Of a stretch of 64,000 nucleotides of DNA, positions 25,761 to 57,711 are shown piece by piece. The DNA comes from Chrysophaeum taylorii (Eukaryota; Sar; Pelagophyceae; Pelagomonadales; Pelagomonadaceae). The position numbers and the translations under genes were made by a program. The notes beneath the pieces were generated by a model. It saw only the letters and a program-made list of their open reading frames with translations, had not been told where the DNA came from and searched no databases. The stretch's first letter is position 1, and each line of letters begins with the position of its first letter. The stretch lies in contig JAQMWT010000667.1 in the NCBI GenBank assembly GCA_029834535.1, positions 276,451-340,450 on the forward strand. Reading direction: 5' to 3'.

Positions 25761-26782
25761 TCCTAACTACTAATCGACAGATGTTTGTCTGTTTGTTTGT
25801 CTGTTTGTCTGTTTGTTTGTCTGTCACTCGATTTAGGGTAAGGATCAGGTAGGCGCGAGAGTAAGGATCAGGTAGGCGCGAGAGCCAGACAGTGATCCTC
25901 CAAGCCGTCTACGGCGACCTCGCAGACTATTTCCACGACCCGCGGCGGCTCTTTCAGCGCGCCATTCTCACGCCCCGTCGAAACGATGTTGTCGATGCTG
26001 ACAACGCGCGCGTGACCGCGGCCTTTTTTTCCCGGAGACGAGGCGTCGGAGTTCTTTTCGGCCGACTAGGTTGGCTCGGAAGACGACGCCTCGCTCTTTA
26101 CAGTCGAGTTTTCAACTCCCTGACAACCAACGGCATGCTGACTTTAATCGCGAGCTTAAAGTCTTCGCAACCTCGACCCGTCGCACGGCCACTGCAACGG
26201 TACCAGATACATGATCGATCGCGTCGTTGTCACCGAGGCTTCTCCAACTCGCCCATTGGGTGGACGGCGAGAAAAAAACCCTCATGGTCCCGCGCATCAC
26301 CCTCACCACGAAGCACGGCGACCTCCCCTTCGAGCTGCGCCGACGCCAGTTTCCGTTAAGGCCGGCGTTCGCCATGACGATCAACAAGAGCCAGGGCCAG
26401 ACGCTTCGCAAGGTCGGCGTCCTCTTGCCCAAGCCCGTCTTCGGCCACGGCCAGCTCTACGTGGCTCTCAGCCGAGTTGGCAAGCCCGAGGACATCGTCT
26501 TCTGGGTCGACGACTCCACCCGACCCAACGTAGCGCAATACCGACAACGCCACCCTGGCGTCTACACGCGCAACGTGGTTTACCACGAGGTCCTCCGGTA
26601 GCCGCACTACCCTTATTAGGACGAGTGTTGTTCGCGAGGGACCGGGTCGAAGTCAGCGCAGCAGCGCAGCACGAAACTTTGTGGGGTTTGAGAACCAAGT
26701 GAATGTGGGGTAAACTCAAAGGTGAATGTGGGGTTAGAAATCTGAGCAAACTTACTGGCCTGCACTTACTGGCCTGCACTTG
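25761..26782 (+). mobile_element. Helicase-derived repeat element, copy A (most complete)
   Basis: It begins TCCTAACTACTAATCGACAG followed by the TGTTTGTC microsatellite and ends GGCCTGCACTTG. The flanks rejoin as G^T without a target duplication. It is the only copy keeping a helicase segment (about 26262-26370) that the other copies have lost, so it is closest to the progenitor. It begins 31 bp after the TWINKLE stop codon. Confidence 0.75.
25893..26601 (+). pseudogene. 3' part of a PIF1-type helicase gene (in copy A)
   Basis: Three plus-strand frames follow one another: LQAVYGDLADYFHDPRRLFQ and RAILTPRRNDVVDADN (from 25893), then NLDPSHGHCNGTRYMIDRVV (~26170), then an open C-terminal frame from 26227 with LPFELRRRQFPLRPAFAMTI, NKSQGQT and QLYVALSRV and the end NVVYHEVLR. 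These are the last helicase motifs of the PIF1 group found in Helitron Rep/Hel proteins and in cellular PIF1. Walker A and the N-terminal part are absent. Frameshifts and stops separate the segments, so it is not functional here. Confidence 0.75.
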
Positions 26783-26820
26783 TGTTTGTTTTAACGCCCA
26801 AAAATTCATTTTTTTCGTCT

Positions 26821-27762
26821 ATGTCCGACGACCTCAGCTTCGACGAGTTTCGTGCCATCCAGCGCCAGCGGCAGCAGGACGAGGAGGACGAAAAGCCGGC
26901 GCCGGCGCCGCTGTCTCGGCGCGCCGGCGTCTTCGCCGAGATGGTCGAGGTGCAGCTGCTGATGGCGTTGCTCATCGTCGTCGACGTAGCGGCGTCGGCG
27001 GTCGCGTCGGCGTGCAACTTGGGCGTGCCGGCGTGGGGCGCGCGCCTCATCGAGGCTTTCACCGGATTCACGGTCTTCGTCTTCCTCTTCGAGCTCGCCG
27101 CACTCGTCGCTGCGTTTGGTCCAATCGAGTTTGCGAGACACCCGGGCTACGCCCTCGACGCGATCGTCGTCGGACTCTCTTTGTGCGCCGAAATGCAGCA
27201 GGGCGGCCGTGACGTCCGGCTCCTCGGTTTTCTGCGCCTCTGGCGCCTCGCGAGACTCAACGACGCCTACGTGGGGGCGGCCAAGCTCGACGCCGACGCC
27301 GCGAGAGCCCAAGCCGCCGACCACCGCGAGGCCGCGCTCAAGCTCCAGCTCGACCTCTCGCAATTCCAGGCCTCGCTCCACGAAGCCGCGGCCTCGCGGA
27401 AGCGCCTGGAAACTATGTGCAGGGCCTACAAGGACGAGATCGACACGCTCAACGAGGCCCTCGCCATCGCAGCCATGGACATCGCGGAGGCTGCCGACGA
27501 CCAGCTCCTCCAGGAGGAGGACGAGGAGGACCACCACCATAAACAACAACAACAAAAACAACATGATGGGGACGACGAACCCGCTCTCCCTATCGCGACG
27601 AAACCCCCTCCCAGACCCACCAAATTCGTCGTCGACGAGTCCGGCGCCTATTATCAACGCAAAGATGATGATGATGATGATGATGATGAGGTTGCTGATG
27701 GTGGCGAACAACAACTCCAGCAACCCCCTCCCAGACAAAGCAACGGACCCCAAAAAGAATAG
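26821..27762 (+). CDS. Hv1-like voltage-gated proton channel
   Basis: 313 residues from the ATG at 26821; no ATG lies upstream in frame. Four helices form a lone voltage-sensor domain: S1 with the proton-selectivity Asp (D55, LLIVVDVAA), S2 with E91, S3 with D113, and S4 RLLGFLRLWRLARLN with arginines R133, R139, R142 and R145. The RxWRxxR signature separates Hv1 from other voltage sensors. The canonical S4 Asn is one residue early (N147). A long coiled coil follows (about 150-235), as in dimeric Hv1, then a Gln/His- and Asp-rich tail including a GAT microsatellite. Hv1 passes H+ outward, which in algae supports pH control during calcification or photosynthesis. Physiology here is inferred. 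Confidence 0.85.
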   Translation: MSDDLSFDEFRAIQRQRQQDEEDEKPAPAPLSRRAGVFAEMVEVQLLMALLIVVDVAASAVASACNLGVPAWGARLIEAFTGFTVFVFLFELAALVAAFGPIEFARHPGYALDAIVVGLSLCAEMQQGGRDVRLLGFLRLWRLARLNDAYVGAAKLDADAARAQAADHREAALKLQLDLSQFQASLHEAAASRKRLETMCRAYKDEIDTLNEALAIAAMDIAEAADDQLLQEEDEEDHHHKQQQQKQHDGDDEPALPIATKPPPRPTKFVVDESGAYYQRKDDDDDDDDEVADGGEQQLQQPPPRQSNGPQKE

Positions 27763-27919
27763 TTGAAGTCTGACGCCTCCTTGCCGCGAGATTTCATAAA
27801 TTGCAGGCAATTCCTGTTTGTGTTTCTGTGTGAGCTTTTGTGACCTGGAAGTTCACACGAATAAACAAGAAAACATTATTTTCTGTTTGAACACCTGGAG
27901 TCTCCACCAACCTAAGACA

Positions 27920-28639
27920 ATGGACTGCGTGGTCGAGGACAGCCTGCAAGCCCGCGTGGAGGCGATGAAGCAGAGACTCCGTCTACCCGAAGAGCACATC
28001 AAAGATTTGCTCTCGATTTCGGGGGGGACCGACATCGTCGTCATCGCCGACGACTCGAGCAGCATGAACATGGTGGCCGACACGGAGGGGCTTCGAACGC
28101 GGTGGATAGAGCTGCAGGAGACGCTCCGAAGTCTCGTCACCATGCTCCTCGTCATCGAGCACGTCGACGGCTTTTGGCTCAAATTTTTGAACGATCCCAG
28201 CTGGTACATCGTGACGTCCGAGCAGCAACTCGTCGACATCTACCTCGCAAAGCCCCGCGCCCGCGGCAAGACCCCGCTCAAGGCCTCGCTCGCCCCGGTG
28301 ATGCAAGGGTACGGCGACATCGAAAAAGAAACCCTCGTCCTCACCGATGGCCAGCCGACCGACTGCTCGTTCCCCGAGCTCGTCGAGCTCGTCCGTTCCA
28401 AACGCAGCGACGTTTACCTGTCCTTTGCCATGTGCACCGACCAGCTCGACGTGGTCGACGCGTACAACAAGCTGGTCGATCCGATCCCGGGCTGCGACAT
28501 CACCGACGACTACGTCACCGAGCGCGCGGAGGCAAAGCTCGTGGGCAGAGACCTCACCCCCTACCAGTGGCTCGTAAAACTTCTCCTCGTCAAGCACGAC
28601 CACTATGACAAGCTCGACGAGCACCACAATCCCCCATGA
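27920..28639 (+). CDS. von Willebrand factor A-domain protein
   Basis: 239 residues from the ATG at 27920. The N-terminal helix is followed by a vWA fold with a MIDAS metal site: DDSSSM (DxSxS) at the first strand, a Thr in RGKTPLKASL and LVLTDGQPTD as the Asp motif. It ends TPYQWLVKLLLVKHDHYDKL. vWA proteins of this intracellular type often scaffold ubiquitin or membrane complexes. No partner domain is seen in the ATG-to-TGA frame. The same frame continues after the TGA with a coding-like tail (separate entry), so the true protein may be longer. It lies 157 bp after the Hv1-like gene on the same strand. Confidence 0.8.
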   Translation: MDCVVEDSLQARVEAMKQRLRLPEEHIKDLLSISGGTDIVVIADDSSSMNMVADTEGLRTRWIELQETLRSLVTMLLVIEHVDGFWLKFLNDPSWYIVTSEQQLVDIYLAKPRARGKTPLKASLAPVMQGYGDIEKETLVLTDGQPTDCSFPELVELVRSKRSDVYLSFAMCTDQLDVVDAYNKLVDPIPGCDITDDYVTERAEAKLVGRDLTPYQWLVKLLLVKHDHYDKLDEHHNPP

Positions 28640-31031: not shown

Positions 31032-31035
31032 GATG

Positions 31036-31586: not shown

Positions 31587-32663
31587 CAAGGGCAGGCCAG
31601 TAAGTTCGCCAGTAAGTTCACCTAGTCCCAATCTCTAACCCCAGTAAGTTCACCTGGTCCCAGTAAGTTCACCTAGTCCCAATCTCTAACCTCAGTAAGT
31701 TCGGCGTAAGCCCACTCGTGCTCGCTCACATCCACTCACCCCTCTCCTTTGAACTCGTCCCTCTCACCCTCGCCAATCTAAGCTGCTTTGATCCGCACAC
31801 GCCGCTAACCTTTGAGTTTACTCCAAAAAAAATAGTAAGTTCACTTGGTCCCAGTAAGTTCGCCTGGTCACTAATTTCACCTAGTCCCAATCTCTAACCT
31901 CCGTAAGTTCACCTGGTTCCAGTAAGTTCACCTGGCCCCAGTAAGTTCACTTACAGTGCGCGTGTAGACGCCGGGAGGGGGCTTATCGGTATTGCGCAGC
32001 ACGTGTGGGGTAGGGTGGAGTCGTCGACTCAGAAGAGGATATCCTCGGGGTTGCCGATCGACAGAGAGCCACGTAGAGCTGGACGTGGCAGAAGACGGGC
32101 TTCGCCAAGAGGACGCCGACCTCGCGGGGCGTCTGGCCCTAGCTCTTGGTGATCGTTTCGCGTCGGCGGGCCTTACGGGATACAGGTTGGAGGAGCCTCG
32201 GTGACAACGACACGATCGATCATGTATCTGGTACCGATGCAGTGGCCGTGCGACGGGTCGAGGTTGCGAAGACTTAAAGCTCGCGATCAAAGTCAGCATG
32301 CCGTTGGTTGTCAGGGAGTTGAAAACTCTACTCTTGAGAGCGAGGCGTCGTCTTCCGACCCAACCTAGTCGGCCGAAAAGAACTCCGACGCCTCGTCTCC
32401 GGGAAAAAAAGGCCGCGGTCATGCGCGCGTTGTCAGCATCGACAACATCGTTTCGACGGGGCGTGAGAATGGCGCGCTGAAAGCGCCGCCGCGGGTCGTG
32501 GAAATAGTCTGCGAGGTAGACGGCTTGGAGGATCACTGTCTGGCTCTCGCGTCTACCTGATGCTTACTCTCGCGCCTACATGATCCTTACCCTAAATCGA
32601 GGGACAAACAGACAAACAAACAAACAGACAGACAGACAAACATCTGTCGATTAGTAGTTAGGA
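31587..32663 (-). mobile_element. Helicase-derived repeat element, copy B
   Basis: Minus-strand copy; its 5' end is at 32663 and its 3' end at 31587. Its 5' end directly abuts the 3' end of copy D, making a head-to-tail junction. It carries the same internally deleted helicase remnant as the other non-A copies. Confidence 0.75.
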
Positions 32664-35087
32664 CAAGGGCAGGCCAGTAAGTTCACCTAGTCCCAATCTC
32701 TAACCCCAGTAAGTTCACCTGGTCCCAGTAAGTTTCATATAAGTTCACCTGGTCAGTCCTAACTACTAATCGACAGATGTTTGTCTGTCTGTTTGTTTGT
32801 TTGTTTGTCCCTCGATTTAGGGTAAGGATCAGGTAGGCGCAAGAGTAAGGATCTGGTAGGCGCGAGAGCCAGACAGTGATCCTCCAAGCCGTCTACGGCG
32901 ACCTCGCAGACTATTTCCACGACCCGCGGCGGCTCTTTCAGCGCGCCATTCTCACGCCCCGTCGAAACGATGTTGTCGATGCTGACAACGCGCGCACGGC
33001 GACCTCGCAGACTATTTCCACGACCCGCGGCGGCTCTTTCAGCGCGCCATTCTCACGCCCCGTCGAAACGATGTTGTCGATGCTGACAACGCGCGCATGA
33101 CCGCGGCCTTTTTTTCCCGGAGACGAGGCGTCGGAGTTCTTTTAGGCAGACTAGGCTGGGTCGGAAGACGACGCCTCGCTCTCAAGAGTCGAGTTTTGAA
33201 CTCCCTGACAACCAACGGCATGCTGACTTTGATCGCGAGCTTAAAGTCTTCGCAACCTCGACCCGTCGCACGGCCACTGCAACGGTACCAGATACATGAT
33301 CGATCGTGTCGTTGTCACCGAGGCTCCTCCAACCTGTATCCCGTAAGGCCCGCCGACGCGAAACGATCACCAAGAGCAAGGGCCAGACGCCCCGCGAGGT
33401 CGGCGTCCTCTTGGCGAAGCCCGTCTTCTGCCACGTCCAGCTCTACGTGGCTCTCTGTCGATCGGCAACCCCGAGGATATCCTCTTCTGAATCGACGACT
33501 CCACCCTACCCCACACGTGCTGCGCAATACCGATAAGCCCCCTCCCGGCGTCTACACGCGCACGGTAGGTGAACTTACTGGGACCAGGTGAACTTACTGG
33601 GGTTTGAGATTGGGACTAGGTGAACTAAGTGACCAGGTGAACTTACTGGGACCAAGTGAACTTACAGGGGTTTTTAGAGTGAACGCAAAGGCTAGCGGCG
33701 TGTACGGATGAAAGCGGCTTAGATTGGCGGAGGTGAGAGCGACGAGCTCGAAGGAGAGTGGGGTGAGTGGGTGTGAGCACGAGTGGGTTTTATGCCGAAC
33801 TTACTGGGGTTAGAGATTGGGACTAGGTGAACTTACTGACCAGGTGAACTTACTGGGACCAGGTGAACTTACTGGGGTTAGAGATTGGGACTAGGTGAAC
33901 TTAACTGGCCTGCACTTGTATTATTATTGACAGTAAGTTCACCTAGCTCACACCAACTCCTTTGAGCTCGTCGCTCTCGCCTCCGCCAATCTAAGCTGCT
34001 TTGATCCGCACGCGCCGCCAACCTTTGAGTTTACTCTAAAAACCCTTTACTCTAAAAACCCCAGTATGTTCACCTGGTCCCAGTTTCACCTGGTCACTCA
34101 GCTCACCTAGTCCCAATCTCCAACCCCAGTAAGTTCACTTGGTCCCAGTAAGTTCACCTACAGTGCGCGTGTAGACGCCGTGAGGGGGCTTATCGGTATT
34201 GCGCAGCACGTGTGGGGTAGGGTGGAGTCGTCGACCCAGATGAGTATATCCTCGGGGATGCCGATCGACAGAGAGCCACGTAGAGCTGGACGTGGCAGAA
34301 GACGGGCTTGGGAAAGAGGACGCCGACCTCGCGGGGGGTCTGGCCCTGGCTCTTGTTGATCGTTTGGCGTAGGCGGGCCTTAAGCGATACAGGTTGGAGG
34401 AGCCTCGGTGACAACGACACGATCGATCATGTATCTGGTACCGTTGCAGTGGCCGTGCGACGGGTCGAGGTTGCGAAGACATTAAGCTCGCGATCAAAGT
34501 CAGCATGCCGTTGGTTGTCAGGGAGTTCAAAACTCTACAGTAAAGAGCGAGGCGTCGTCTTCCGACCCAGCCTAGTCAGCCGAAAAGAACTCCGGCGCCT
34601 CGTCTCCGGGAAAATAAAGGCCGCGGTCATGCGCGCGTTGTCAGCATCGACAACATCGTTTCGACGGGGCGTGAGAATGGCGCGCTGAAAGAGCCGCCGC
34701 GGGTCGTGGAAATAGTCTGCGAGGTCGCCGTAGACGGCTTGGAGGATCACTGTCTGGCTCTCGCGCCTACCTGATCCTTACTCTCGTGCCTACCTGATCC
34801 TTACCCTAAATCGAGGGACAAACAGACAGACAAACAGACAGACAAACATCTGGCGTTGTCAGCATCGACAACATCGTTTCGACGGGGCGTGAGAATGTCG
34901 CGCTGAAAGAGCCGCCGCGGGTCGTGGAAATAGTCTGCGAGGTCGCCGTAGACGGCTTGGAGGATCACTGTCTGGCTCTCGCGCCTACCTGATCCTTACT
35001 CTCGTGCCTACCTGATCCTTACCCTAAATCGAGGGACAAACAGACAGACAAACAGACAGACAAACATCTGTCGATTAGTAGTTAAGA
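32664..35087 (-). mobile_element. Helicase-derived repeat element, copy D, split by copy C
   Basis: Its parts are 32664-32756 and 33919-35087. The two sides rejoin inside a sequence that is uninterrupted in the plus-strand copy at 52650-53685 (GACCAGGTGAACTTATATG side and TGTCAATAATAATACTGACC side), so copy C inserted after D existed. It also holds a 218-bp internal tandem duplication (34635-34852 and 34853-35070). Confidence 0.75.
32757..33918 (+). mobile_element. Helicase-derived repeat element, copy C, nested in copy D
   Basis: The ends are TCCTAACTACTAATCG and CTGCACTTG. Host flanks GGTCAG and TATTATT rejoin with no base lost or duplicated. A stretch of about 102 bp (GACCTCGCAGACTATTTCCA...CAACGCGC) is tandemly doubled at about 32895-33097. 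Confidence 0.8.
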
Positions 35088-36161
35088 CAAGTGCAGGCCA
35101 GTAAGTTCGCCAGTAAGTTCACCTAGTCCCAATCTCTAACCCCAGTAAGTTCACCTGGTCCCAGTAAGTTCACCTGGTCAGTAAGTTCACCTAGTCCAAA
35201 TCTCCAACCCCAGTAAGTTCGGCGCAAACCCACTCGTGCTCACACCACTCCTTCGAGCTCGTCGCTGTCGCCTCAGCCAATCTAAGCTGCTTCGATCCGC
35301 ACGCGCCGCCAACCTTTGAGTTTACTCTAAAAACCCTTTACTCTAAAAACCCCAGTATGTTCACCTGGTCCCAGTTTCACCTGGTCACTCAGTTCACCTA
35401 GTCCCAATCTCAAACCCCAGTAAGTTCACGTGGTCCCAGTAAGTTCACCTACAGTGCGCGTGTAGACGCAGGGAGGGGGCTTATCGGTATGGCGCAGCAC
35501 GTGTGGGGTAGGGCGGAGTCGTCGACTCAGAAGAGTATATTCTCGGGGTTGCCGATCGACAGAGAGCCACGTAGAGCTGGACGTGACAGAAGACGGGCTT
35601 GGGCAAGAGGACGCCGACCTCGCGGGGCGTCTGGTCCTGGCTCTTGTTGATCGTTTGGCGTAGGCGGGCCTTGAGGGATACAGGTTGGAGGAGCCTCGGT
35701 GACACGACACGATCAATCACGTATCTGGTACCGTTGCAGTGGCCGTGCTACGGGTCGAGGTTGCGAAGACTTTAAGCTCGCGATCAAAGTCAGCATGCCG
35801 TTGGCTGTCAGGGAGTTGAAAACTCGACTGTAAAGAGCGAGGCGTCGTCTTCCGACCCAACCTGTCTGCCTAAAAGAACTCCGACGCCTCGTCTCCGGGA
35901 AAAAAAGGCCGCGGTCATGCGCGCGTTGTCAGCATCGACAACATCGTTTCGACGGGGCGTGAGAATGGCGCGCTGAAAGAGCCGCCGCGGGTCGTGGAAA
36001 TAGTCTGCGAGGTCGCCGTAGACGGCTTCGAGGATCACTGTCTGGCTCTCGCGCCTACCTGATCCTTACTCTCGCGCCTACCTGATCCTTACCCTAAATC
36101 GAGGGACAGACAGACAGGCAAACAAACAAACAGACAAACATCTGTCGATTAGTAGTTAGGA
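35088..36161 (-). mobile_element. Helicase-derived repeat element, copy F
   Basis: The 5'-most member of the minus-strand F-D-B trimer. The left flank in element orientation ends ...GATGTCAG and the trimer's far flank begins TTTTCTC, again G^T. Confidence 0.75.
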
Positions 36162-37123: not shown

Positions 37124-40100
37124 TCTTAACTACTAATCGACAGATGTTTGTCTGTCTGTTTGTTTGTCTGTTTGTCTTTAAATGTCGACTGCTAAGAGGG
37201 GGGTGTGTGTGGGGAGCATGAAGGATGTGGGTGGGTTTGTGGGGTATGAGGGATGTGCCTGACGGGCGGAGATAAGTACGCGGGACCTAGTCGGGGTCAT
37301 CGCCGAGGCGTGGGGCAGGCGAAGAGAGGACGGGCCCCGCCCGTAGGTCGTACGCATGCTGCCGCCGGACGTATGTGCGACGAAGGGTGACGTCCTGCTG
37401 GGATCGGGCGGCCTGGGCGGGGTTCCCCGAGGCGGCGACATGGGTGAGGGCGGTGAGGGCACAGCGAGCCCGGCCTAATGCGTTGGCGATCCCCCACTCA
37501 CGGTAGATGCGGCGAGTTTGGGCCGCCTTTGCCTCTGTGAAGTTGGCGCAGCCGCTTGTCACCCAGGTTCGCGCAGCGATGCGCTCTGCGCATGTTTGGG
37601 CGAGAGCGTGGCACGCCGCGCTGGCCTCACCGAAGGCACCGAAGACGAGGCCGGCGACGGTGCCGTAGCTACGTAGCCGCTGTTCGACAGGGCCCAAGAA
37701 GCCAGGCGGTGGTGCTGTACCCGGCTGGGGGATGATGGCGTCGATGCCGCGGGCGTGAGCGAGGTATTCGGAGTGGACTTGCGCTGCGCGCCGATCGACA
37801 GGCGACGGTTGGAGGGATGGAGGCGTGGGCGGTGTACAAAGAACCCCAAGCGAGGGTTTTGATGTCGTAGAGTTGCTCCTTGTTGTCGAGCGTGGTGAGG
37901 ATGTCTGGGACGACTTGACGTCGGGCGAGATTGCCTCGGTACCGGCCGTAGAGGCGCGTGCGAATGGTAGGGGCGACGACGTCAGCAAAGATGCCGAAAA
38001 CCTCGGACAGGGCTGGGATGCCGGCCTCTTTGACGCTGCCGTGGACGCAGTCGAGCTGGCCGTCATGCCAGGTGGTCCGCGCTCCTCCGCGGTTGACAAG
38101 GTTGGCCTGCGTGAGAAGCACCTTGCCGTGAGCGTCGAGAACGACGTCAGTGCCCAGAATGCGAGTGCCCACGAGGCCCAAACAAGCTGGAGAGGGGTAG
38201 CCAAAGTACTGGGCACACATCTCAGCCCAGCAGCGGTTGGGGATTTGAAGGCCAGAGCTGGGCCACGAGCTGATGAACGTGGTCGAGAAGCGATCCCATG
38301 AGGACGCCGCTACTCGAAGTGCTTCGGTGATGGGAAGGGTGGCCGCAAGGCGCTGGAGTGCAGTGGCCCGAGCTGTCTCGCGCTGGGAGGTTAGAGCACG
38401 CTGGAGTTGGGGTATGAGCACGGGTGTCGAGATGGTGGGGTCGACGAGGACGCCCATGGACACGAATTCGTGGGAGAGAGGACCGTCGACGAGATGAACG
38501 TTGGCGGGGTCGCCGGAACCAGCGCCGCCGTGGGAAGCCAGCGTGGTACGGAGATCAGCCCGAAGTCCGTTCCACGCAGTCTCGAGTGCCCGCCCCAGGC
38601 GGCAACCGGATGCGAGGAGGTGGTGCCAACGGTGCAACTCGTTACCTGTGCGAAAAGAAGTGGCACCCAGGACCGAGGCGAGGCGGGGAGGTAGCCAGGG
38701 ACCTCCAAGGCACCCGTAGGATCGCGAAGGTCGACGAGGTGTGGGAGGGCCTGGGCCGCCGTGCCAACAAAGGCGGCGGGGCTGAGGTCGGCGCAGGAGC
38801 GAATGCCGCCACCCCCACTTCGAGCAGGAAGACGGAGGCGTTGGAGGACGATGCCGTTGGAGTCAAAAACCTGACGCGGATCTGCGCCAAGTGCTGTGGC
38901 GACGAAGCTGAGGGCGGCAACGTCGAAGCGGCGGAGCGCGCTCAAGGCATTGGTGGGGTAGCAGTGTTGCGCGATGTAGTCCATGCGCGGGCGATGCAGT
39001 AGCGGCCCAACGAGTACATGCAGTGGAGGGGACGTTCTGGAGCTTGGTGCGAATACGGCTCATGTAGCTCACCTGAGCGTCAACCTCGCGTTGCAAGGTA
39101 GCTTCGACATAGGCATCTCCGGCGTGGCCGGGGGAGCCGATGGGCACACCGTAGATTACGAGGCCGTCGGCGACAACGGGGATACCAGCAAGAGTACGCG
39201 TGCCGTCAGGCGCAACTTGGACGTGGTCGTGAACATCGGGGTGGTCGAGAAGCCCCATGCCAAGTGCCGGACAGAACGCCTCGCACTTGTCGAGGCGGAG
39301 CTCCTCGCCGCTAGCTTGGATGTCGCGGGCGTACTGCAGGAGGGCGTCGACAACCTCACGAGGGGAACCAGAGATGACGCCGTCGTCCATGCCAAATCGG
39401 GCGTAGCCGGCACATGAACGTAAGCGGGTGTCAAGGGCCTGAGCGGCGTCATGCGTTGCCAGACAGTACGCCGGTGGATAGGTGGGGTCGCCTTGCTGGC
39501 CGCCTTCTTGATTTGTTTGTCTGTTTGTCCCTCGATTTAGGGTAAGGATCAGGTAGGCGCGAGAGTAAGGATCAGGTAGGCGCGAGAGCCAGACAGTGAT
39601 CCTCCAAGCCGTCTACGGTGACCTCGCAGACTATTTCCACGACCCGCGGCGGCTCTTTCAGCGCGCCATTCTCACGCCCCGTCGAAACGATGTTGTCGAT
39701 GCTGACAACGCCGCGCGCATGACCGCGGCCTTTTTTTCCCGGGGCGTCGGAGTTCTTTTCGGCCGACTAGGTTGGATCGGAAGACGACGCCTCGCTCTTT
39801 ACAGTCGAGTTTTTAACTCCCTGACAACCAACGGCATGCTGACTTTGATCGCGAGCTTAAAGTCTTCGCAACCTCGACCCGTCGCACGGCCACTGCAACG
39901 GTACCAGATACATGATCGATCGTGTCGTTGTCACCGAGGCTCCTCCAACCTGCATCGCTTAAGGCCCACCTACGCCAAATGATCAACAAGAGCCAGGGCC
40001 AGACGCCCCGCGAGGTCGGCGTCCTCTTTCCCAAGCCCGTCTTCTGCCACGTCCAGCTCTACGTGGCTCTCTGTCGATCGGCATCCCCGAGGATATACTC

Positions 40101-40477
40101 ATCTGGGTCGACGACTCCACCCTACCCCACACGTGCTGCGCAATACCGATAAGCCCCCTCCCGGCGTCTACACGCGCACGGTAGGTGAACTTACTGGGGC
40201 CAGGTGAACTTACTGGGACCAGGTGAACTTACTGGGACCAGGTGAACATACTGGGGTTTTCAGAGTAAGTTTTGGTTTTTAGAGTAAACTCAAAGGTTGG
40301 CGGCGCGTGCGGATCAAAGCAGCTTAGATTGGCGGAGGCGAGAGCGACGAGCTCGAAGGAGTGGGTGTGAGCTAGGTGAACTTACTGACCAGGTGAACTT
40401 ATACGAAACTTACTGGGATTAGGTGAACTTACTGGGGTTAGAGATTGGGACTAGGTGAACTTACTGGCCTGCACTTG
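37124..40477 (+). mobile_element. Helicase-derived repeat element, copy E, split by a LINE
   Basis: Its parts are 37124-37176 and 39512-40477; the first part is only the 5' end and microsatellite. Outer flanks CCTTTGAGAG and TTTACTCC rejoin as G^T. Confidence 0.75.
37177..39511 (-). mobile_element. 5'-truncated non-LTR retrotransposon (LINE-type) inserted in copy E
   Basis: An 18-bp duplication (TTTGTTTGTCTGTTTGTC) flanks it at 37159-37176 and 39512-39529. On the minus strand the reverse transcriptase palm is seen from the 5' side: GGQQGDPTYPPAYCLATHDA, then ARFGMDDGVISGSP (the catalytic YxDD-type site as MDD), EELRLDKCEAF and IYGVPIGSPGH. The downstream thumb and C-terminal part follow in other frames (RLRLPARSGGGGIRSCADLS, AFVGTAAQALPHLVDL). 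At least three frameshifts make it inactive. The fingers, any endonuclease and ORF1 are missing. The 3' end (ATTTAAA) matches a second copy at 45614. Confidence 0.75.
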
Positions 40478-43419: not shown

Positions 43420-44914
43420 CAACTTGGTTGTTGGGATGTGATTCGCCTCCCTCAGACTTTTTCTGGCAACATTTGTACCCTCAAGTGGATCCTCCGCAAG
43501 AAGTATGACTCTGGCCGCTAAATCGTACAAGGCTCGCCTTGTCGTCCGCGGTTACACCCAGGTTCACGGCATTGATTATCATGACACCTACTCACCGGTT
43601 GCCAACATCGTCACGATCCGTTTCTTTCTGACCTTTGTCGCTGCTCATGACTGGGATTTGCACAAGTTGGATGTTTGCTCCGCTTTTATTCAAGCTCCCA
43701 TTGACGAAGACATCTATGTCTGGCCACCCGAAGGCTATGCTCCTCGCCAACCCACCGATGGTCCCAAAATCGTTTACAAGCTCCGTCGCTCTTGGTATGG
43801 TTGCAAACAAGCTTGTCGCAATTGGTGGCTTTATTTGGAACGCTTCCTTCTCAATGATTGTGGCTTCGTCCGCGGATCTGGTGACACTTGCCATTACAAG
43901 CTCGTCCTCAATTCTACCGTGGTCCTCCGTCTTGTTTTGGTCGTCGATGATCTTCTTGTGGCGCACCCTCCTCATTGCATTGGCCATTACCAAGCCTTTT
44001 TCCTCCGTTTCCGCGCTTTCACTGACGTCAATGAACTCGATCTCACCTCTTACGTTGGTCTTCGCATTACGCGTGATCGCCCTCGGAGAACCCTCACTCT
44101 TGACCAATCCCATGCTATCCGCGAAATCCTTACCGAACATCGCTTCATCAACAGTAAACCCGAACTCACTCCCGCTCCCAAACCCAAAGGTCTTCATCTT
44201 TCTGCGGCTGATTGTCCGGCTCCTGGTTCTCCAGATCACATCTTCATGGCACGCATCCCTTTTCGCCGTATTGTTGGCTGTGTCCTCTTCATCTCCATCA
44301 TGACTCGCCCTGATATCACTTGGTCCGTCAATCAGTGTGCGCGTTTTCCCCACAATCCTGGTAAACCCCACTGGCACGCTTTATCCCACACTCTGCGTTA
44401 TCTCAACGGTACTCAGGATCTTGCCCTTATTCTTGGTCGCGATTCTACCCTTCATCTCTGTGGTTATTCCGACTCCAGCTGGGCCGACGACCCTGATGAC
44501 CGCCACTCTACAACTGGGTTTTGTTTTCTTCTCAGCGGCTCTATGATAGCCTACTGCTCCCGCTCGCAATACTTACTTGCTCGTTCTTCTTTCGAAGCTG
44601 AATTGCTTGCTCTTTACGCTGCTACTGCTGATCTCTCTTGGCTTCTCAAACTTTTTGATGACTTTGACCTCCCTCGTCACACGGTCCCAATGTATGTTGA
44701 TAATAGCACCACCGTCACTCAAGTTCGTCTCCAATGTCTCACACGGCGCACCCGCCATATTGACATTCGCTTTTACAGTACCGCCGAATATCATCGCAAC
44801 CACATCATCGATCTCAAGCACATACCCCGCCTTAACAATCTTAGCGACATTTTCACCCGCAGTACGGAAGCTCCTTCCTTCCTCCGGCTTCGTGCTCGTT
44901 ACCTCACTTCGTGA
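43420..44914 (+). pseudogene. Copia reverse transcriptase and RNase H
   Basis: The RT starts in one frame (GNICTLKWILRKKYDSG) and shifts by one base near 43515 into a frame open to 44914. Seen: YKARLVVRGYTQVHGIDYHD, YSPVANIVTIR, HKLDVCSAFIQAPIDEDIYV, the active site LVLVVDDLLVA, and the RNase H part LCGYSDSSWADDPDDRHSTT with MYVDNSTTV and RTRHIDIRF. This is the full C-terminal half of a Copia polyprotein. Only the one frameshift breaks it from about 43420 onward. Confidence 0.85.
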
Positions 44915-46699: not shown

Positions 46700-47057
46700 G
46701 TTTGGGGTAAAGGTGGTACCCGGGAGCCAAAGTTACTGTGGGGCTGTCTGGATTGGGTCAAGGTTGGGGATCGTGCTTGGGGGCGACATGGCTAATTCAG
46801 AAGACCCGTGCTCGAGATCGTAATCGTCTAGAGGCTTGCGCGAAAAGACGAGATCATCGCTAATAAGCGATGCTTAGAATTTTTTTTCTCAGAACGTTGA
46901 GGCGCTGTAGATGCCGGTGTGACTGTAGTAGCCAAGCTTCGCGTTATATTCGATAAGCGTCGAACATTCACCTTGTGTGCGCGCGTTATTACGTGGCCTC
47001 GCTCAGTCCATCGCTGTCCCGTCTACTCCAGGACGGGCTCCTTACACGACGGTCGCA

Positions 47058-47253
47058 TTTTCTACGGCGACTCTGGCTTAAGCGCGGGCCCCAACTGTGA
47101 CCGCCGTCACGTCGGACTCCCAGGGACGGGACTGACGCCGGGACACCATCCTAGATTTTCTACGGCGACTCTGGCTTAAGCGCGGGCCCCAACTGTGACC
47201 GCCGTCACGTCGGACTCCCAGGGACGGGACTGACGCCGGGACACCATCCTAGA
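47058..47253. repeat. 98-bp unit tandemly duplicated
   Basis: Both units begin TTTTCTACGGCGACTCTGG and end CACCATCCTAGA, with no difference seen. The duplication is recent. Confidence 0.9.
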
Positions 47254-48562: not shown

Positions 48563-49580
48563 TCCTAACTACTAATCGACAGATGTTTGTCTGTCTGTCT
48601 GTTTGTCTGTTTGTCTGTTTGTCCCTCGATTTAGGGTAAGGATCATGTAGGCGCGAGAGTAAGGATCAGGTAGGCGCGAGAGCCAGACAGTGATCCACCA
48701 AGCCGTCTACGGCGACCTCGCAGACTATTTCCACGACCCGCGGCGGCTCTTTCAGCGCGCCATTCTCACGCCCCGTCGAAACGATGTTGTCGATGCTGAC
48801 AACGCGCGCATGACCGCGGCCTTTTTTTCCCGGAGACGAGGCGTCGGAGTTCTTTTCGGCTGACTAGGCTGGGTCGGAAGACGACGCCTCGCTCTTTACA
48901 GTAGAGTTTTCAACTCCCTGACAACCAACGGCATGCTGACTTTGATCGCGAGCTTAAGGTCTTCGAAACCTCGACCCGTCGCACGGCCACTGCGACGGTA
49001 CCAGATACATGATCGATCGTGTCGTTGTCACCGAGGCTCCTCCAACCTGTATCCCTTAAGGCCCGCCTACGCCAAACGATCAACAAGAGCCAGGGCCAGA
49101 CGCCCCGCGAGGTCGGCGTCCTTTTGCCCAAACCCGTCTTCTGCCACGTCCAGCTCTACGTGGCTCCCTGTCGATCGGCAACCCCGAGGATATCCTCTTC
49201 TGAGTCGACGACTCCACCCTACCCCACACGTGCTGCGCAATACCGATAAGCCCCCTCCCGGCGTCTACACGCGCACTATAGGTGAACTTACTGGGACCAT
49301 GTGAACTTACTGGGGTTTGGGATTGGGACTAGGTGAGCTGAGTGACCAGGTGAACTAACTGGGACCAGGTGAACTAACTGGGACCAGGTGAACTTACTGG
49401 GGTGTTTAGAGTAAACTCAAGGGTTGGCGGCGCGTGCGGATCAAAGCAGCTTGGATTGGCGGGGGTGAGAGCGATGAGCTCAAAGGAGAGTGGGGTGAGT
49501 GGGTGTGAACACGAGTGGGTTTACGCCGAACTTACTGGGGTTAGAGATTGGGACTAGGTGAACTTACTGGCCTGCACTTG
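48563..49580 (+). mobile_element. Helicase-derived repeat element, copy G (first of the array)
   Basis: Starts TCCTAACTACTAATCG after a T-rich host flank. It is the only start in this window where the base before the element is T rather than G. Confidence 0.75.
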
Positions 49581-49605
49581 TCCTAACTACTAATCGACAG
49601 ATGTT

Positions 49606-49640
<35 letters not shown>

Positions 49641-50635
49641 TTGTCCCTCGATTTAGGGTAAGGATCAGGTAGGAGCGAGAGTGAGCATCAGGTAGGCGCG
49701 AGAGCCAGACAGTGATCCTCCAAGCCGTCTACGGCGACCTCGCAGACTATTTCCACGACCCGCGGCGGCTCTTTCAGCGCGCCATTCTCACGCCCCGTCG
49801 AAACGATGTTGTCGATGCGGACAACGCGCGCATGACCGCGGCCTTTTTTTCCCGGAGACGAGGCGTCGGAGTTCTTTTCGGCTGACTAGGCTGGGTCGGA
49901 AGACGACGCCTCGCTCTTTACAGTAGAGTTTTCAACTCCCTGACAACCAACGGCATGCTGACTTTGATCGCGAGCTTAAAGTCTTCGCAACCTCGACCCG
50001 TCGCACGGCCACTGCAACGGTACCAGATACATGATCGATAGTGTCGTTGTCACCGAGGCTCCTCCAACCTGTATCCCGTAAGGCCCGCCGACGCCAAACG
50101 ATCACCAAGAGCCAGGGCCAGACGCCCCGCGAGGTCGGCGTCCTCTTTCCCAAGCCCGTCTTCTGCCACGTCCAGCTCTACGTGGCTCTCTGTCGATCGG
50201 CAACCCCGAGGATATACTCATCTGGGTCGACGACTCCACCCTACCCCACACGTGCTGCGCAATACCGATAAGCCCCCTCCCGGCGTCTACACGCGCACTG
50301 TAGGTGAACTTACTGGGACCACGTGAACTTACTGAGGTTTGAGATTGGGACTAGGTGAACTAAGTGACCAGGTGAACTTACTGGGACCAAGTGAACTTAC
50401 TGGGGTTTTTAGAGTGAACGCAAGGGCTAGCGGCGTGTACGGATCAAAGCAGCTTAGATTGGCGGAGGTGAGAGCGACGAGCTCGAAGGAGAGTGGGGTG
50501 AGTGGATGTGAGCACGAGTGGGCTTACGCCGAACTTACTGGGGTTAGAGATTGGGACTAGGTGAACTTACTGGGAACCAGGTGAACTTACTGGGGTTAGA
50601 GATTGGGAGTAGGTGAACTTACTGGCCTGCACTTG
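49581..50635 (+). mobile_element. Helicase-derived repeat element, copy H
   Basis: Head-to-tail with G through the junction GCACTTG/TCCTAAC. It has the standard internal deletion in the helicase remnant. Confidence 0.75.
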
Positions 50636-50657
50636 TAACTACTAATCGACAGATGTT

Positions 50658-50688
<31 letters not shown>

Positions 50689-51693
50689 TTGTCCCTCGAT
50701 TTAGGGTAAGGATCATGTAGGCGCGAGAGTAAGCATCAGGTAGGCGCGAGAGCCAGAAAGTGATCCTCCAAGCCGTCTACGGCGACCTCGCAGACTATTT
50801 CCACGACCCGCGGCGGCTCTTTCAGCGCGCCATTCTCACGCCCCGTCGAAACGATGTTGTCGATGCTGACAACGCGCGCATGACCGCGGCCTTTTTTTCC
50901 CGGAGACGAGGCGTCGGAGTTCTTTTCGGCTGACTAGGCTGGGTCGGAAGACGACGCCTCGCTCTTTACAGTAGAGTTTTCAACTCCCTGACAACCAACG
51001 GCATGCTGACTTTGATCGCGAGCTTAATGTCTTCGCAACCTCGACCCGTCGCACGGCCACTGCAACGGTACCAGATACATGATCGATCGTGTCGTTGTCA
51101 CCGAGGCTCCTCCAACCTGTATCCCGTAAGGCCCGCCGACGCCAAACGATCACCAAGAGCCAGGGCCAGACGCCCCGCGAGGTCGGCGTCCTCTTTCCCA
51201 AGCCCGTCTTCTGCCACGTCCAGCTCTACGTGGCTCTCTGTCGATCGGCAACCCCGAGGATATACTCTTCTTGGTCGACGACTCCACCCTACCCCACACG
51301 TGCTGCGCAATACCGATAAGTCCCCTCCCGGCGTCTACACGCGCACTGTAGGTGAACTTACTGGGACCGGTGAACTTACTGGGGTTTGAGATTGGGACTA
51401 GGTGAACTAAGTGACCAGGTGAACTTACTGGGACCAAGTGAACTTACTGGGGTTTTTAGAGTGAACGCAAGGGCTAGCGGCGTGTGCGGATCAAAGCAGC
51501 TTAGATTGGCGGAGGTGAGAGCGACGAGCTCGAAGGAGAGTGGGGTGAGTGGATGTGAGCACGAGTGGGCTTACGCCGAACTTACTGGGGTTAGAGATTG
51601 GGACTAGGTGAACTTACTGGGACCAGGTGAACTTACTGGGGTTAGAGATTGGGACCAGGTGAACTTACTGGCGAACTTACTGGCCTGCACTTG
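50636..51693 (+). mobile_element. Helicase-derived repeat element, copy I
   Basis: The 5' end lacks two C (TAACTACTAATCG) after ...GCACTTG. H and I share the same variants over most of their length, pointing to a recent tandem duplication. Confidence 0.75.
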
Positions 51694-51718
51694 TCCTAAC
51701 TACTAATCGACAGATGTT

Positions 51719-51753
<35 letters not shown>

Positions 51754-52649
51754 TTGTCCCTCGATTTAGGGTAAGGATCAGGTAGGCGCGAGAGTAAGGA
51801 TCAGGTAGGCGCGAGAGCCAGACAGTGATCCTCCAAGCCGTCTACGGCGACCTCGCAGACTATTTCCACGACCCGCGGCGGCTCTTTCAGCGCGCCATTC
51901 TCACGCCCCGTCGAAACGATGTTGTCGATGCTGACAACGCGCGCATGACCGCGGCCTTTTTTTCCCGGAGACGAGGCGTCGGAGTTCTTTTCGGCTGACT
52001 AGGCTGGGTCGGAAGACGACGCCTCGCTCTTTATAGTCGAGTTTTCAACTCCCTGACAACCAACGGCATGCTGACTTTGAGCGCGAGGTTAAAGTCTGTA
52101 TCCCTTAAGGCCCACCGACGCCAAACGATCAACAAGAGCCAGGGCCAGACGCCCCGCGTCCTCTCGCCCAAGTCCGTCTTCTGTCACGTCCAGCTCTACG
52201 TGGCTCTCTGTCGATCGGCAACCCCGAGGATATGCTCTTCTGAGTCGACGACTCCACCCTACCCCACACGCGCTGCGCAATACCGATAAGCCCCCTCCCG
52301 GCGTCTACACGCGCCCTGTAGGTGACCAGGTGAACTTACTGGGGTTTGAGATTGGGACTAGGTGAACTTAGTGACCAGGTGAACTTACTGGGACCAAATG
52401 AACTTACTGGGGTTTTTAGAGTGAACGCAAAGGCTAGCGGCGTGTACGGATCAAAGCAGCTTAGATTGGCGGAGGTGAGAGCGACGAGCTCGAAGGAGAG
52501 TGGGGTGAGTGGGTGTGAGCACGAGTGCGTTACGCTGAACTTACTGGGGTTAGAGATTGGGAGGTGAACTTACTGACGAACGTAACGGGACCAGGAGGAC
52601 TTACTGGGGTAAGAGATTGAGACTAGGTGAACTTACTGGCCTGCACTTG
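51694..52649 (+). mobile_element. Helicase-derived repeat element, copy J
   Basis: Shorter than its neighbours because about 80 bp around NLDPSHGHCNGTRYMIDR are deleted near 52095. Confidence 0.75.
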
Positions 52650-53685
52650 TCCTAACTACTAATCGACAGATGTTTGTCTGTCTGTCTGTCTGTTTGTCCC
52701 TCGATTTAGGGTAAGGATCAGGTAGGCGCGAGAGTAAGGATCAGGTAGGCGCGAGAGCCAGACAGTGATCCTCCAAGCCGTCTACGGCGACCTCGCAGAC
52801 TATTTCCACGACCCGCGGCGGCTCTTTCAGCGCGCCATTCTCACGCCCCGTCGAAACGATGTTGTCGATGCTGACAACGCGCGCATGACCGCGGCCTTTT
52901 TTTCCCGGAGACGAGGCGTCGGAGTTCTTTTCGGCTGACTAGGCTGGGTCGGAAGACGACGCCTCGCTCTTTACAGTAGAGTTTTCAACTCCCTGACAAC
53001 CAACGGCATGCTGACTTTGATCGCGAGCTTAAGTCTTCGCAACCTCGACCCGTCGCACGGCCACTGCAACGGTACCAGATACATGATCGATCGTGTCGTT
53101 GTCACCGAGGCTCCTCCAACCTGTATCGCTTAAGGCCCGCCGACGCCAAACGATCAACAAGAGCCAGGGCCAGACGCCCCGCGAGGTCGGCGTCCTCTTT
53201 CCCAAGCCCGTCTTCTGCCACGTCCAGCTCTACGTGGCTCTCTGTCGATCGGCATCCCCGAGGATATACTCATCTGGGTCGACGACTCCACCCTACCCCA
53301 CACGTGCTGCGCAATACCGATAAGCCCCCTCACGGCGTCTACACGCGCACTGTAGGTGAACTTACTGGGACCAGGTGAACTTACTGGGGTTGGAGATTGG
53401 GACTAGGTGAGATGGTGACCAGGTGAAACTGGGACCAGGTGAACATACTGGGTTTTTTAGAGTAAAGGTTTTAAGAGTAAACTCAAAGGTTGGCGGCGCG
53501 TGCGGATCAAAGCAGCTTCGATTGGCGGAGGCGAGAGCGACGAGCTCAAAGGAGTTGGTGTGAGCTAGGTGAACTTACTGTCAATAATAATACTGACCAG
53601 GTGAACTTATATGAAACTTACTGGGACCAGGTGAACTTACTGGGGTTAGAGATTGGGACTAGGTGAACTTACTGGCCTGCCCTTG
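52650..53685 (+). mobile_element. Helicase-derived repeat element, copy K
   Basis: Keeps the uninterrupted TGTCAATAATAATACTGACC region (about 53580-53600) that serves as the empty site for copy C in copy D. Confidence 0.75.
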
Positions 53686-55740
53686 TCCTAACTACTAATC
53701 GACAGATGTTTGTCTGTCTGTCTGTCTGTCTGTTTGTCCCTCGATTTAGGGTAAGGATCAGGTAGGCGCGAGAGTAAGGATCAGGTGGGCGCGAGAGCCA
53801 GACAGTGATCCTCCAAGCCGTCTACGGCGACCTCGCAGACTATTTCCACGACCCGCGGCGGCTCTTTCAGCGCGCCATTCTCACGCCCCGTCGAAACGAT
53901 GTTGTCGATGCTGACAACGCCGCGCGCATGACCGCGGCCTTTTTTTCCCGGAGACGAGGCGTCGGAGTTCTTTTCGGCCGACTAGGCTGGGTCGGAAGAC
54001 GACGCCTCGCTCTTTACAGTAGAGTTTTGAACTCCCTGACAAGCAACGGCAAGCTGACTTTGATCGCGAGCTTAAAGTCTTCGCAACCTCGACCCGTCGC
54101 ACGGCCTCTGCAACGGTACTAGATACATGATCGATCGCGTCGTGTCACCGAGGCTCCTCGAACCTGTATCCCTCACCGAGGCTCCTCCAACCTGTATCCC
54201 TCAAGGCCCGCCGACGCCAAACGATCAACAAGAGCCAGGGCCAGACGCCCCGCGAGGTCGGCGTCCTCTTGCCCAAGCCCGTCTTCTGCCACGTCCAGCT
54301 CTACGTGGCTCTCTGTCGATCGGCAACCCCGAGGATATCCTCTTCTGGGTCGACGACTCCACCCTACCCCACACGTGCTGCGCAATACCGATAAGCCCCC
54401 TCCCGGCGTCTACACGCGCACTATAGGTGAACTTACTGGGACCACGTGAACTTACTGGGTTTGAGATTTGGTGGTGAGGGGTGGGCGGACCAGGTGAAAC
54501 TGAGTGACCAGGTGAGGGACCGGTGAAACATACTGGGGTTTTAGAGTAAAGGGCTTTAAGAGTAAACAAGTGCAGGCCAGTAAATTTCACCTAGTCCCAC
54601 AATCTCTAACCCCAGTAAGTTCACCTAATCCCAGGTCAGTTTCATATAAGTCACCTGGTCAGTAGGTTCACCTGCTCACCACCCACTGCCTTCGGAGCTC
54701 GTCGCTCTCGCCTACGCCAATCTAAGCTCGATCCGCACGCGCCGCCAACCTTTGAGTTTACTCTAAAAAACTTTACTCTGAAAACCCCAGTATGTTCACC
54801 TGGTCCCAGTAAGTTCACTGGTCCCAGTAATTTCACCTACCGTGCGCGTGTAGACGCCGGGAGGGTGCTTATCGGTATTGCGCAGCACGGGGGGTAGGTG
54901 GAGTCGTCGACTCAGAAGAGGATATCCTCGGGGTTGCCGATCGACAGAGAGCCACGTAGAGCTGGACGTGGCAGAAGACGGGCTTGGCAAAGGACGCCGA
55001 CCTTGCGGGGCGTCTGCCTCTGGCTCTTGTTGATCGTTTGGCGTCGGTGGGGCTTGAGGGATACAGGTTGGAGGAGCCTCGGTGACAGGACACGATCGAT
55101 CATGTATCTGGTACCGTTGCAGTGGCCGTGCGACGGGTCGAGGTTGCGAGACTTTAAGCTCGCGATCAAAGTCAGCATGCCGTTGGTTGTCAGGGAGTTG
55201 AAAACTCTACTGTAAAGAGCGAGGCGTCGTCTTCCGATCCAACCTAGTCGGCCGAAAAGAACTCCGACGCCTCGTCTCCGGGAAAAAAGGCCGCGGTCAT
55301 GCGCGCGTTGTCAGCATCGACAACATCGTTTCGACGGGGCGTGAGAATGGCGCGCTGAAAGAGCCGCCGCGGGTCGTGGAAATAGTCTGCGAGGTCGCCG
55401 TAGACGGCTTGGAGGATCACTGTCTGGCTCTCGCACCTACCTGATCCTTACTCTCGCGCCTACCTGATCCTTACCCTAAATCGAGGGACAAACACACAGA
55501 CAGACAGACAGACAAACAAACAGACAAACATCTGTCGATTAGTAGTAAGGACTCAAAGGTTAGCGGCGTGTGCGGATCGAAGCAGCTTAGATTGGCGGAG
55601 GCGAAAGCGACGAGCTCGAAGGAGTTGGTGTGAGCTAGGTGAACTTACTGACCAGGTGAACTTATACGAAACTTACTGGGATCAGGTGAACTTACTGGGG
55701 TTAGAGATTGGGACTAGGTGAACTTACTGGCCTGCACTTG
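53686..55740 (+). mobile_element. Helicase-derived repeat element, copy L, split by copy M
   Basis: Its parts are 53686-54566 and 55552-55740. The parts rejoin exactly as AGAGTAAA + CTCAAAGG, a sequence seen unbroken in copies K and N. Confidence 0.75.
54567..55551 (-). mobile_element. Helicase-derived repeat element, copy M, nested in copy L in opposite orientation
   Basis: In element orientation it starts TCCTTACTACTAATCG and ends CCTGCACTTG, between host CCTTTGAG and TTTACTCT. Confidence 0.8.
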
Positions 55741-56794
55741 TCCTAACTACTAATCGACAGATGTTTGTCTGTCTGTTTGTTTGTCTGTCTGTTTGTCCCT
55801 CGATTTAGGGTAAGGAACAGGTAGGCGTGAGAGTAAGGATCAGGTAGGCGCAAGAGCCAGACAGTGATCCTCTAAGCCGTCTACGGCGACCTCGCAGACT
55901 ATTTCCACGAGCCGCGGCGGCTCTTTCAGCGCGCCATTCTCACGCCCCGTCGAAACGATGTTGTCGATGCTGACAACGCGCGCATGACCGCGGCCTTTTT
56001 TTCCCGGAGACGAGGCGTCGGAGTTCTTTTCGGCCGACTAGGTTGGGTCGGAAGACGACGCCTCGCTCTTTACAGTCGAGTTTTCAACTCCCTGACAACT
56101 AACGGCATGCTGACTTTGATCTCGAGCGTAAAGTCTTCGCAACCTCGACCCGTCGTACGGCCACTGCAACGGCACCAGATACATGATCGATCGTGTCGTT
56201 GTCACCGAGGCTCCTCCAACCTGTATCCCTTAAGGCCCGCCTACGCCAAACGATCAACAAGAGCCAGGGCCAGACGCCCCGCGAGGTCGGCGTCCTCTTT
56301 CCCAAGCCCGTCTTCTGCCACGTCCAGCTCTACGTGCTCTCTGTCGATACTCATTCTGGTCGACGACTCCACCCTACCCCACACGTGCTGCGCAATACCG
56401 ATAAGCCCCTCCCGGCGTCTACACGCGCACTATAGGTGAACTTACTGGGACCACGTGAACTTACTGGGGTTTGAGATTGGGACTGGGACCACGTGAACTT
56501 ACTGGGGTTTGAGATTGGGACTAGGTGAACTGAGTGACCAGTGAAACTGGGACCAGATGAACATACTGGGGTTTTAGAGCAAAGTTTTTAGAGTAAACTC
56601 ACTCAAAGGTTGGCGGCGCGTGCGGAGGCGAGAGCGACGAGCTCAGAGGAGTTCGTGTGAGCTAGGTGAACTTACTGACCAGGTGAACTTATATGAAACT
56701 AACTGGGACCAGGTGAACTTACTGGGACCAGGTGACCAGGTGAACTTACTGGGGTCAGAGATTGGGAGTAGGTGAACTTACTGGCCTGCACTTG
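55741..56794 (+). mobile_element. Helicase-derived repeat element, copy N
   Basis: Complete 5' end. A small deletion near 56335-56355 removes part of the LSVDRQ region. Confidence 0.75.
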
Positions 56795-57711
56795 TGTTTG
56801 TCTGTTTGTTTGTCTGTCTGTCTGTTTGTCCCTCGATTTAGGGTAAGGATCAGGTAGGCGCGAGAGTAAGGATCAGGTAGAAGCGAGAGCCAGACAGTGA
56901 TCCTCCAAGCCGTCTACGGCGACCTCGCAGACTATTTCCACGACCCGCGGCGGCTCTTTCAGCGCGCCATTCTCACGCCCCGTCGAAACGATGTTGTCGA
57001 TGCTGACAACGCGCGCATGACCGCGGCCTTTTTTTCCCGGAGACGAGGCGTCGGAGTTCTTTTCGGCTGACTAGGCTGGGTCGGAAGACGACGCCTCGCT
57101 CTTTACAGTAGAGTTTTCAACTCCCTGACAACCAACGGGATGCTGACTTTGAGCGCGAGCTTAATGTCTTCGCAACCTCGACCCGTCGCACGGCCACTGC
57201 AACGGTACCAGATACATGATCGATCGTGTCGTTGTCACCGAGGCTCCTCCAACCTGTATCCCTTAAGGCCCGCCTACGCCAAACGATCAACAAGAGCCAG
57301 GGCCAGACGTCCCGCGAGGTCGGCGTCCTCTTGGCGAAGCCCGTCTTCTGCCACGTCCAGCTCGACGTGGCTCTCTGTCGATCGGCAACCCCGAGGATAT
57401 CCTCTTCTGGGTCGACGACTCCACCCTACCCCACACGTGAGCTTACTGGGACCAGGTGAGCTTACTGGAGTTTTTTGCAACTCAAACTCAAAGGTTGGCG
57501 GCGCGTGCGGATCAAAGCAGCTTGGATTGGCGGGGGGGAGAGCGACGAGCACAAAGGAGAGTGGGGTGAGTGGGTGTGAGCACGAGTGGGTTTGCGCCGG
57601 GAGAGAGATTGGGACTAAGTGAACTAACTGACCAGGTGAACTTACTGGGACCAGACCTAAACTTACTAGGGTTAGATATTGGGACTAGGTGAACTTACTG
57701 GCCTGCACTTG
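56795..57711 (+). mobile_element. Helicase-derived repeat element, copy O (last of the array)
   Basis: Lacks the CCTAACTACTAATCGACAGA start and begins in the microsatellite. An internal deletion lies after the PTPHV region (about 57440). It ends GGCCTGCACTTG before TTGAATTATA. Confidence 0.75.

Follow-up and report, generated by a model that had tools for sequence, protein, structure and literature searches.

Helitrons with CTTG ends and no 3' hairpin in Chrysophaeum taylorii, and the growth of their head-to-tail arrays

What kind of element fills the locus described here, what moves it, and how do its copies come to lie head to tail? The window, a stretch of 64,000 nucleotides from the pelagophyte Chrysophaeum taylorii (GenBank assembly GCA_029834535.1, contig JAQMWT010000667.1, positions 276,451 to 340,450 of the forward strand), holds fifteen copies with common ends, named A to O. 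A preliminary description, made from the sequence alone, had counted the same fifteen, and searches for the end motifs on both strands together with blastn mapping agree with it. It is likely that they are high-copy non-autonomous Helitrons mobilised in trans by autonomous Helitrons of 6.7-7.3 kb that share their ends and encode a Rep (HUH/Y2) with a PIF1 helicase, and that their arrays arose mainly by serial joining.

The autonomous partner can be found in the same genome, which was searched over 70.8 Mb in 697 contigs. The Pfam profile Helitron_like_N gives 40 matches, and eight loci resembling copy A (L061-L068) are each preceded, about 2.2-2.3 kb upstream, by a Rep match. The 3' end is present at all eight and a recognised 5' end of the short-copy type at three (L061, L064 and L066). 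The ends of the L061 element (positions 1632-8412 of that locus; 6,781 bp) are exactly those of the short copies, while the L064 and L066 elements measure 6,743 bp and 7,319 bp, the latter with the 5' end TCCTTAC. Two frames of L061 match Helraiser (7lcc), the sole reference Rep sequence in this comparison, at E=1.7e-175 and 1.6e-66 with most of the protein covered. The L061 stretches GLPHAHILL and VKYIHKYVYKGHD align with the HUH and two-tyrosine stretches of Helraiser, and Pfam recognises Helitron_like_N, PIF1 and Pif1_2B in its open reading frames (ORFs). A Rep with HUH and two tyrosines is therefore joined to a PIF1-type helicase, as expected of a Helitron. The six longest stretches of autonomous partners are 96.0-98.7% identical pairwise over their four best pieces each. 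The Helitron-type, helicase-derived nature that the preliminary description had assigned is upheld by these comparisons, and the full-length copy that it had proposed to look for, in which an HUH Rep precedes the helicase, exists in three examples with the ends of the short copies. A second group of Helitron_like_N matches, L056-L059, has weaker scores (49-64 bits) and mostly a longer domain span; it is perhaps another Helitron lineage.

The solitary copy A (25761-26782, plus strand) clusters with the autonomous elements in a tree of units and carries a doubled 14-bp unit at its 3' end. It aligns with full elements at eight loci with 88-92% identity over most of its length, and in it the 5' end and satellite are fused to a late stretch of the helicase; a further ~98 bp is absent from the other window copies. 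The PIF1 helicase remnant claimed earlier is faint in Pfam (Pif1_2B_dom, 21.5 bits, under the cut-off of 23.9) and clear from this homology. The two kinds of internal satellite reported with it are also present, one of the TGTTTGTC type close to the 5' end and a 19-bp AGGTGAACTTACTGGGACC array close to the 3' end, along with a 23-bp doublet. By sequence comparison, the short copies are internal-deletion derivatives of the 6.7-7.3 kb Helitron. They are abundant: a 17-base pattern of the 5' end, allowing at most one mismatch, has 2,793 matches in the genome (1,337 forward, 1,456 reverse) and its reversed control none, so chance does not account for it. Taking about 1 kb per copy, we estimate the share of the family in the genome to be of the order of 4%.

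Which Helitrons these are is a matter of ends and targets. Autonomous and short copies alike begin with the TC of Helitrons, as TCCTAAC, TCTTAAC or TCCTTAC. The 3' contexts, collected with a one-mismatch pattern which itself finishes CTTG, end in CTTG in 58 of 61 cases; two end in CTTA, both being inner units of doubled ends, and one in GTTG. The canonical CTRR is replaced by CTTG, and its absence had been remarked on before. None of 51 distinct 3' ends has a perfect stem of at least 6 (loop 2-10) in its last 60 nt, and the hairpin expected roughly 11 nt ahead of the 3' end is not seen, three folded ends having given weak folds only. Nor do inverted repeats join the two ends: in each of eight elements the longest exact inverted match between the first 80 and the last 100 nt measures 5 nt, whereas shuffled sequences average 5.8-6.6. 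The subterminal or asymmetric inverted repeats of Helentron/HINE and Helitron2 are not found in these elements.

Insertion takes place before T and after G, T or A. We obtained 83 distinct 5' contexts, not by random draw but from loci picked for their similarity and from the contigs at the head of the list; 13 lie behind an element 3' end, 4 behind element 5' sequence, and 66 are host-flanked, representing 64 distinct targets. The base before insertion at these 64 is G in 27, T in 19, A in 17 and C in 1. Since the base preceding T in the window is A in 18.5%, C in 28.2%, G in 28.7% and T in 24.6% of cases (chi-square p=4e-5), C is avoided and A is not required. The 3' flank opens with T in 30 of 33 cases, or in 24 of 27 once six flanks that run on into element sequence are excluded.

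Five empty sites, four of them G^T and one T^T, are all without target-site duplication (TSD), as the preliminary description had held for its own copies; it had named TSDs at other copies as evidence that would overturn its reading. The T^T site is that of the autonomous element at L066, whose joined flanks match elsewhere over 160 of 160 bases. The flanks of the minus-strand array F-D-B (31587-36161), when joined, are contiguous in another repeat at all five places fetched, so that the entire array occupies one target without TSD. A third site, at L011, was established by comparison with five related places, of which one is partial. The remaining two are nested insertions, each G^T in the sense of the inserted copy: once C is removed, the joined flanks in copy D are 100% identical to copy K and L019 over 140 bp, and copy L joined across M reads AGTAAA/CTCAAAGG, which is contiguous in many copies. 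With such sites, with a Rep-helicase partner that has the same ends and with no terminal inverted repeat, an element bounded by terminal inverted repeats or long terminal repeats, or an unrelated repeat with a helicase pseudogene, has next to no probability; nothing was found in favour of either, and a partner of such a type is refuted.

A more serious rival for classification is that the copies are of Helentron/HINE type, which combines a T^T target with satellite-bearing non-autonomous elements, rather than of Helitron1 type. Internal satellites and a microsatellite, T-rich 3' flanks and high copy number do recall DINE-1/HINE as portrayed in passages of PMC4067079. The 5' TC, the G^T targets and the Helraiser match over most of the protein speak against it, as do the lack of any terminal or subterminal inverted repeat above shuffles and of an endonuclease domain, for which the two L061 ORFs have no Pfam match (the helicase ORF stops 184 nt short of the 3' end). 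We regard this assignment as very improbable. A strict T^T target is itself disfavoured, four of the five empty sites being G^T if the element begins TC; if it begins CC they fall on the T side, and a shifted reading, CC...CTTGT, fits the sequence too. The terminal T could be assigned to either side, as for Helitrons generally, the first T being indistinguishable from the target T. It was also considered that every T before the 5' end might be a TCT stutter. Nine of the 64 host-side flanks do end in TCT, yet the TC at L023 is present in paralogous host copies and L066 is a true T^T, so a stutter does not account for every case.

Compared with Helraiser/Helibat, the canonical Helitron1, the family is alike in the homology of its Rep-helicase and in its 5' TC, as well as in the absence of TSD, the T after the 3' end and the AT-rich 3' flank mentioned in parts of PMC4778049. 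It is unlike them in ending with CTTG rather than CTRR, in having no 3' hairpin and in a 5' target base of G, T or A rather than A, which precedes neither the majority of insertions nor any of the five empty sites. A 3' CTTG is reported for HELPO2 of Pleurotus ostreatus (PMC4289320, in part) and for some maize Helitrons and truncated Helraiser insertions (PMC4778049, in part); the relevant passages of PMC4289320 describe HELPO families as AT-specific and as having a subterminal hairpin, neither of which is true here. Helitron2/FoHeli and Helentron/HINE share with this family a rolling-circle Rep-helicase, targets other than A^T and satellite-bearing short copies (excerpts of PMC4067079 and PMC5148889), and differ in their asymmetric terminal inverted repeats and endonuclease. 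The family is a non-canonical variant of Helitron.

How, then, did the arrays form? The minus array consists of F (35088-36161), its initial unit on the 5' side, then D, and B (31587-32663), its final unit on the 3' side. D, which has a 218-bp internal duplication, is divided into a main part (33919-35087) and a 3' part (32664-32756) by the plus-strand copy C (32757-33918; 101-bp internal tandem duplication), nested at G^T. The plus array comprises G (48563-49580), with which it opens, H (49581-50635), I (50636-51693), J (51694-52649; with an internal deletion), K (52650-53685), L, N (55741-56794) and O (56795-57711), with which it closes; L is split into a 5' part (53686-54566) and a 3' part (55552-55740) by the minus-strand copy M (54567-55551), nested at CCTTTGAG^TTTACTC (G^T). 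Both arrays had been outlined in the preliminary description and both are real on blastn mapping. Its statement that head-to-tail junctions are exact holds for five of the seven plus-strand junctions (G/H, I/J, J/K, K/L and L/N); it fails at H/I, where I starts TAACTAC without the first three bases (TCC), and at N/O, where O lacks its 5'-terminal 21 bp. M also splits L. Across the genome, a search for exact head-to-tail junctions with at most two mismatches gives 521, spread over many contigs among the 100 places listed, against none for the reversed control. Random insertion would be expected to place about 0.3 copies exactly on a 3' end (2793 squared over ~30 million N^T sites).

Exact junctions would be anticipated from rolling-circle concatemers, in which the transposase overruns a weak, hairpin-less 3' end, re-copies one element and inserts the multimer in one step. 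The number of such junctions, the single TSD-less target of F-D-B and the presence of close neighbours (H and I are 98.5% identical, and pairs at L029 and L061 are 0.4-0.6% distant) all favour that account, and bypass of the termination signal has been invoked for tandem arrays in passages of PMC4067079. The relatedness of neighbours points the other way. Members of one array are scattered in the tree, which holds 82 units drawn from the window and from 29 loci, and the units within arrays differ in subfamily and structure. Adjacency was assessed on 33 adjacent same-strand pairs with cores beginning within 1,150 bp, whose median distance is 3.5% as against 4.7% for inter-locus pairs (n=3,185). 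For 24 of the 33, both neighbour ranks are worse than 10 of 81; closer copies thus exist elsewhere for both members, and one-template concatemers therefore fail for most arrays. Copy H, for example, shares more with C, which lies outside the array (96.4%), than with its neighbour G (95.5%). At L061, the 6.8-kb autonomous element sits exactly head to tail, with a 1,049-bp copy on one side and, on the other, a short-type unit that has no recognised 5' end of its own; repeated copying of a single template would not yield that order. The exactness that had been taken as a sign of rolling-circle replication is real, then, while neighbours are usually not nearest kin. With extra bases at 136 further junctions also to be accommodated, concatemers as the general mode of array growth are already weakened, and we think this account doubtful.

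Those 136 junctions carry 1-30 extra bases (searched without mismatches). Fragments of the element's 5' end are over-represented at near-exact junctions: 43 of 89 parsed fillers are prefixes of that end or chains of them (TCT, TCTTA, or 13, 21 or 25 nt), as against 1.2 among same-length starts of 27 host flanks and a mean of 6.1 (maximum 13 in 2,000 rounds) among shuffled fillers. Many of the other 46 fillers, short and T-rich, may be host flank, and the same filler at several places need not imply independent origin. Another 60 junctions are without the first three bases, and 73 run from the 3' end into TGTTTGTCTG, which starts at base 22 of the element. At four loci (C2, C3, C9 and C441) a 21-bp duplicate is followed about 1 kb later by CTTG|TGTTTG, which matches nesting at an A^T 21 bp inside the element. 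These were paired by eye among the matches listed (100 per list). Nesting as the source of all irregular junctions was rejected: C2 also shows the reverse order, 21-bp duplicates at C1, C11, C29, C99 and C418 have no partner, and N/O in the window has no duplicate. Pairs with the 3-bp offset, also matched by eye, stand at 3 to 3 for nested against reverse order.

A third account treats the arrays as ordinary tandem repeats that began with a single chance tandem insertion and were expanded by unequal crossing-over and gene conversion, with no role for the transposase in their growth. It draws on a slight excess of similarity between neighbours and on three places, C281:43555-48611, C377:47857-49957 and C29:355044-356191, where one short filler recurs at successive junctions with a constant spacing of about 1 kb (one of the four fillers in C281 is off by a base). 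Such repetition is the mark of tandem amplification of unit plus filler. As a general explanation it is nevertheless unlikely: 521 exact junctions on many contigs would demand equally many founding events, each founding junction would still be an exact insertion, and neighbours are heterogeneous.

The arrays are better explained by different members of the family inserting at the 3' end of a resident copy than by one-template concatemers. The transposase of autonomous elements would move the short copies in trans, and arrays would grow mainly when copies made independently attach exactly to the 3' terminus of a resident copy (CTTG^T), an end that would serve the transposase both as a cleavage site and as a G^T target of the permitted kind. 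In a smaller share of arrays, such as those at C281, C377 and C29, growth would be by rolling-circle re-copying or unequal exchange. A further possibility, which we put forward tentatively, is that the family targets itself: the transposase would prefer resident 3' termini, building exact arrays of unrelated copies by serial insertion, and the fillers made of 5'-end fragments would be scars of abortive cycles (5' nick, short extension and religation of the displaced end).

Several observations weigh against mobilisation in trans with serial joining. Transposition itself was not observed, and no uninterrupted Rep-helicase frame was found in the three autonomous copies translated (L061, L064 and L066). 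Besides the constant-spacing fillers, the mean distance of adjacent units is 0.057 against 0.075 when permuted (p=0.012), and in 5 of 33 pairs, with two expected, the neighbour ranks within the nearest five. Adjacent copies are thus somewhat closer than random, and part of the arrays therefore reflects local re-copying or exchange. The adjacency test is weak for copies of the same burst, and the loci that supplied the 82 units were chosen because they resemble copy A or Rep. Three of the 33 3' flanks open with a base other than T. Among the 40 candidates scored per search, many of them repeats, no empty site was seen for 10 of 13 host sites (W1, W3, W4, L013, L014, L016, L026, L046, L064 and L023).

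Tandem Helitron arrays are on record from bat, silkworm, maize, rice and other genomes, and the published cases resemble those here in their head-to-tail copies and in the direct adjoining of distantly related Helitrons (passages of PMC5876387, PMC4067079 and PMC5148889). They differ in that exact junctions are very frequent here, 521 against 2,793 matches to the 5' end, both counted in this genome. Published accounts (parts of PMC4289320, PMC4778049, PMC5876387, PMC4067079 and PMC5148889) thus already cover CTTG ends, circles, tandem arrays and unrelated Helitrons lying side by side, and with a Rep-helicase homologous to Helraiser the undescribed system that the preliminary description had suspected is not supported. 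The combination of CTTG, no hairpin, no requirement for A and very frequent exact junctions was not found in the open-access literature searched, as far as the portions available extend. Thousands of hairpin-less copies that do not follow the A^T rule, with hundreds of exact and heterogeneous junctions, offer material to tell concatemers from serial insertion, and bear on how Helitrons pick targets and terminate replication. Structure-based finders that demand CTRR and a hairpin, such as HelSearch as described in part of PMC4289320, would overlook the family.

Other features lie among the copies. Copy E (37124-40477, plus strand) has its 5' satellite interrupted by 2.3 kb of non-family sequence (37178-39513), which contains open frames, none of the five tried having a Pfam match up to E=1. 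The left edge of this insert recurs next to other copies (L008, L015, L030, L038, L076, L100 and L102), and at L008 and L076 at least an insert of this type occupies the same CAG^T point. A Copia-type reverse transcriptase frame (43442-44914; RVT_2, E=7e-32) lies in the interval from E to G. A frame with Toprim and DnaB-like helicase domains, which we take to be Twinkle-like, occupies 23717-25729 and stops just before copy A, and a perfect 98-bp tandem duplication stands at 47057-47253, about 1.3 kb ahead of the G-O array.

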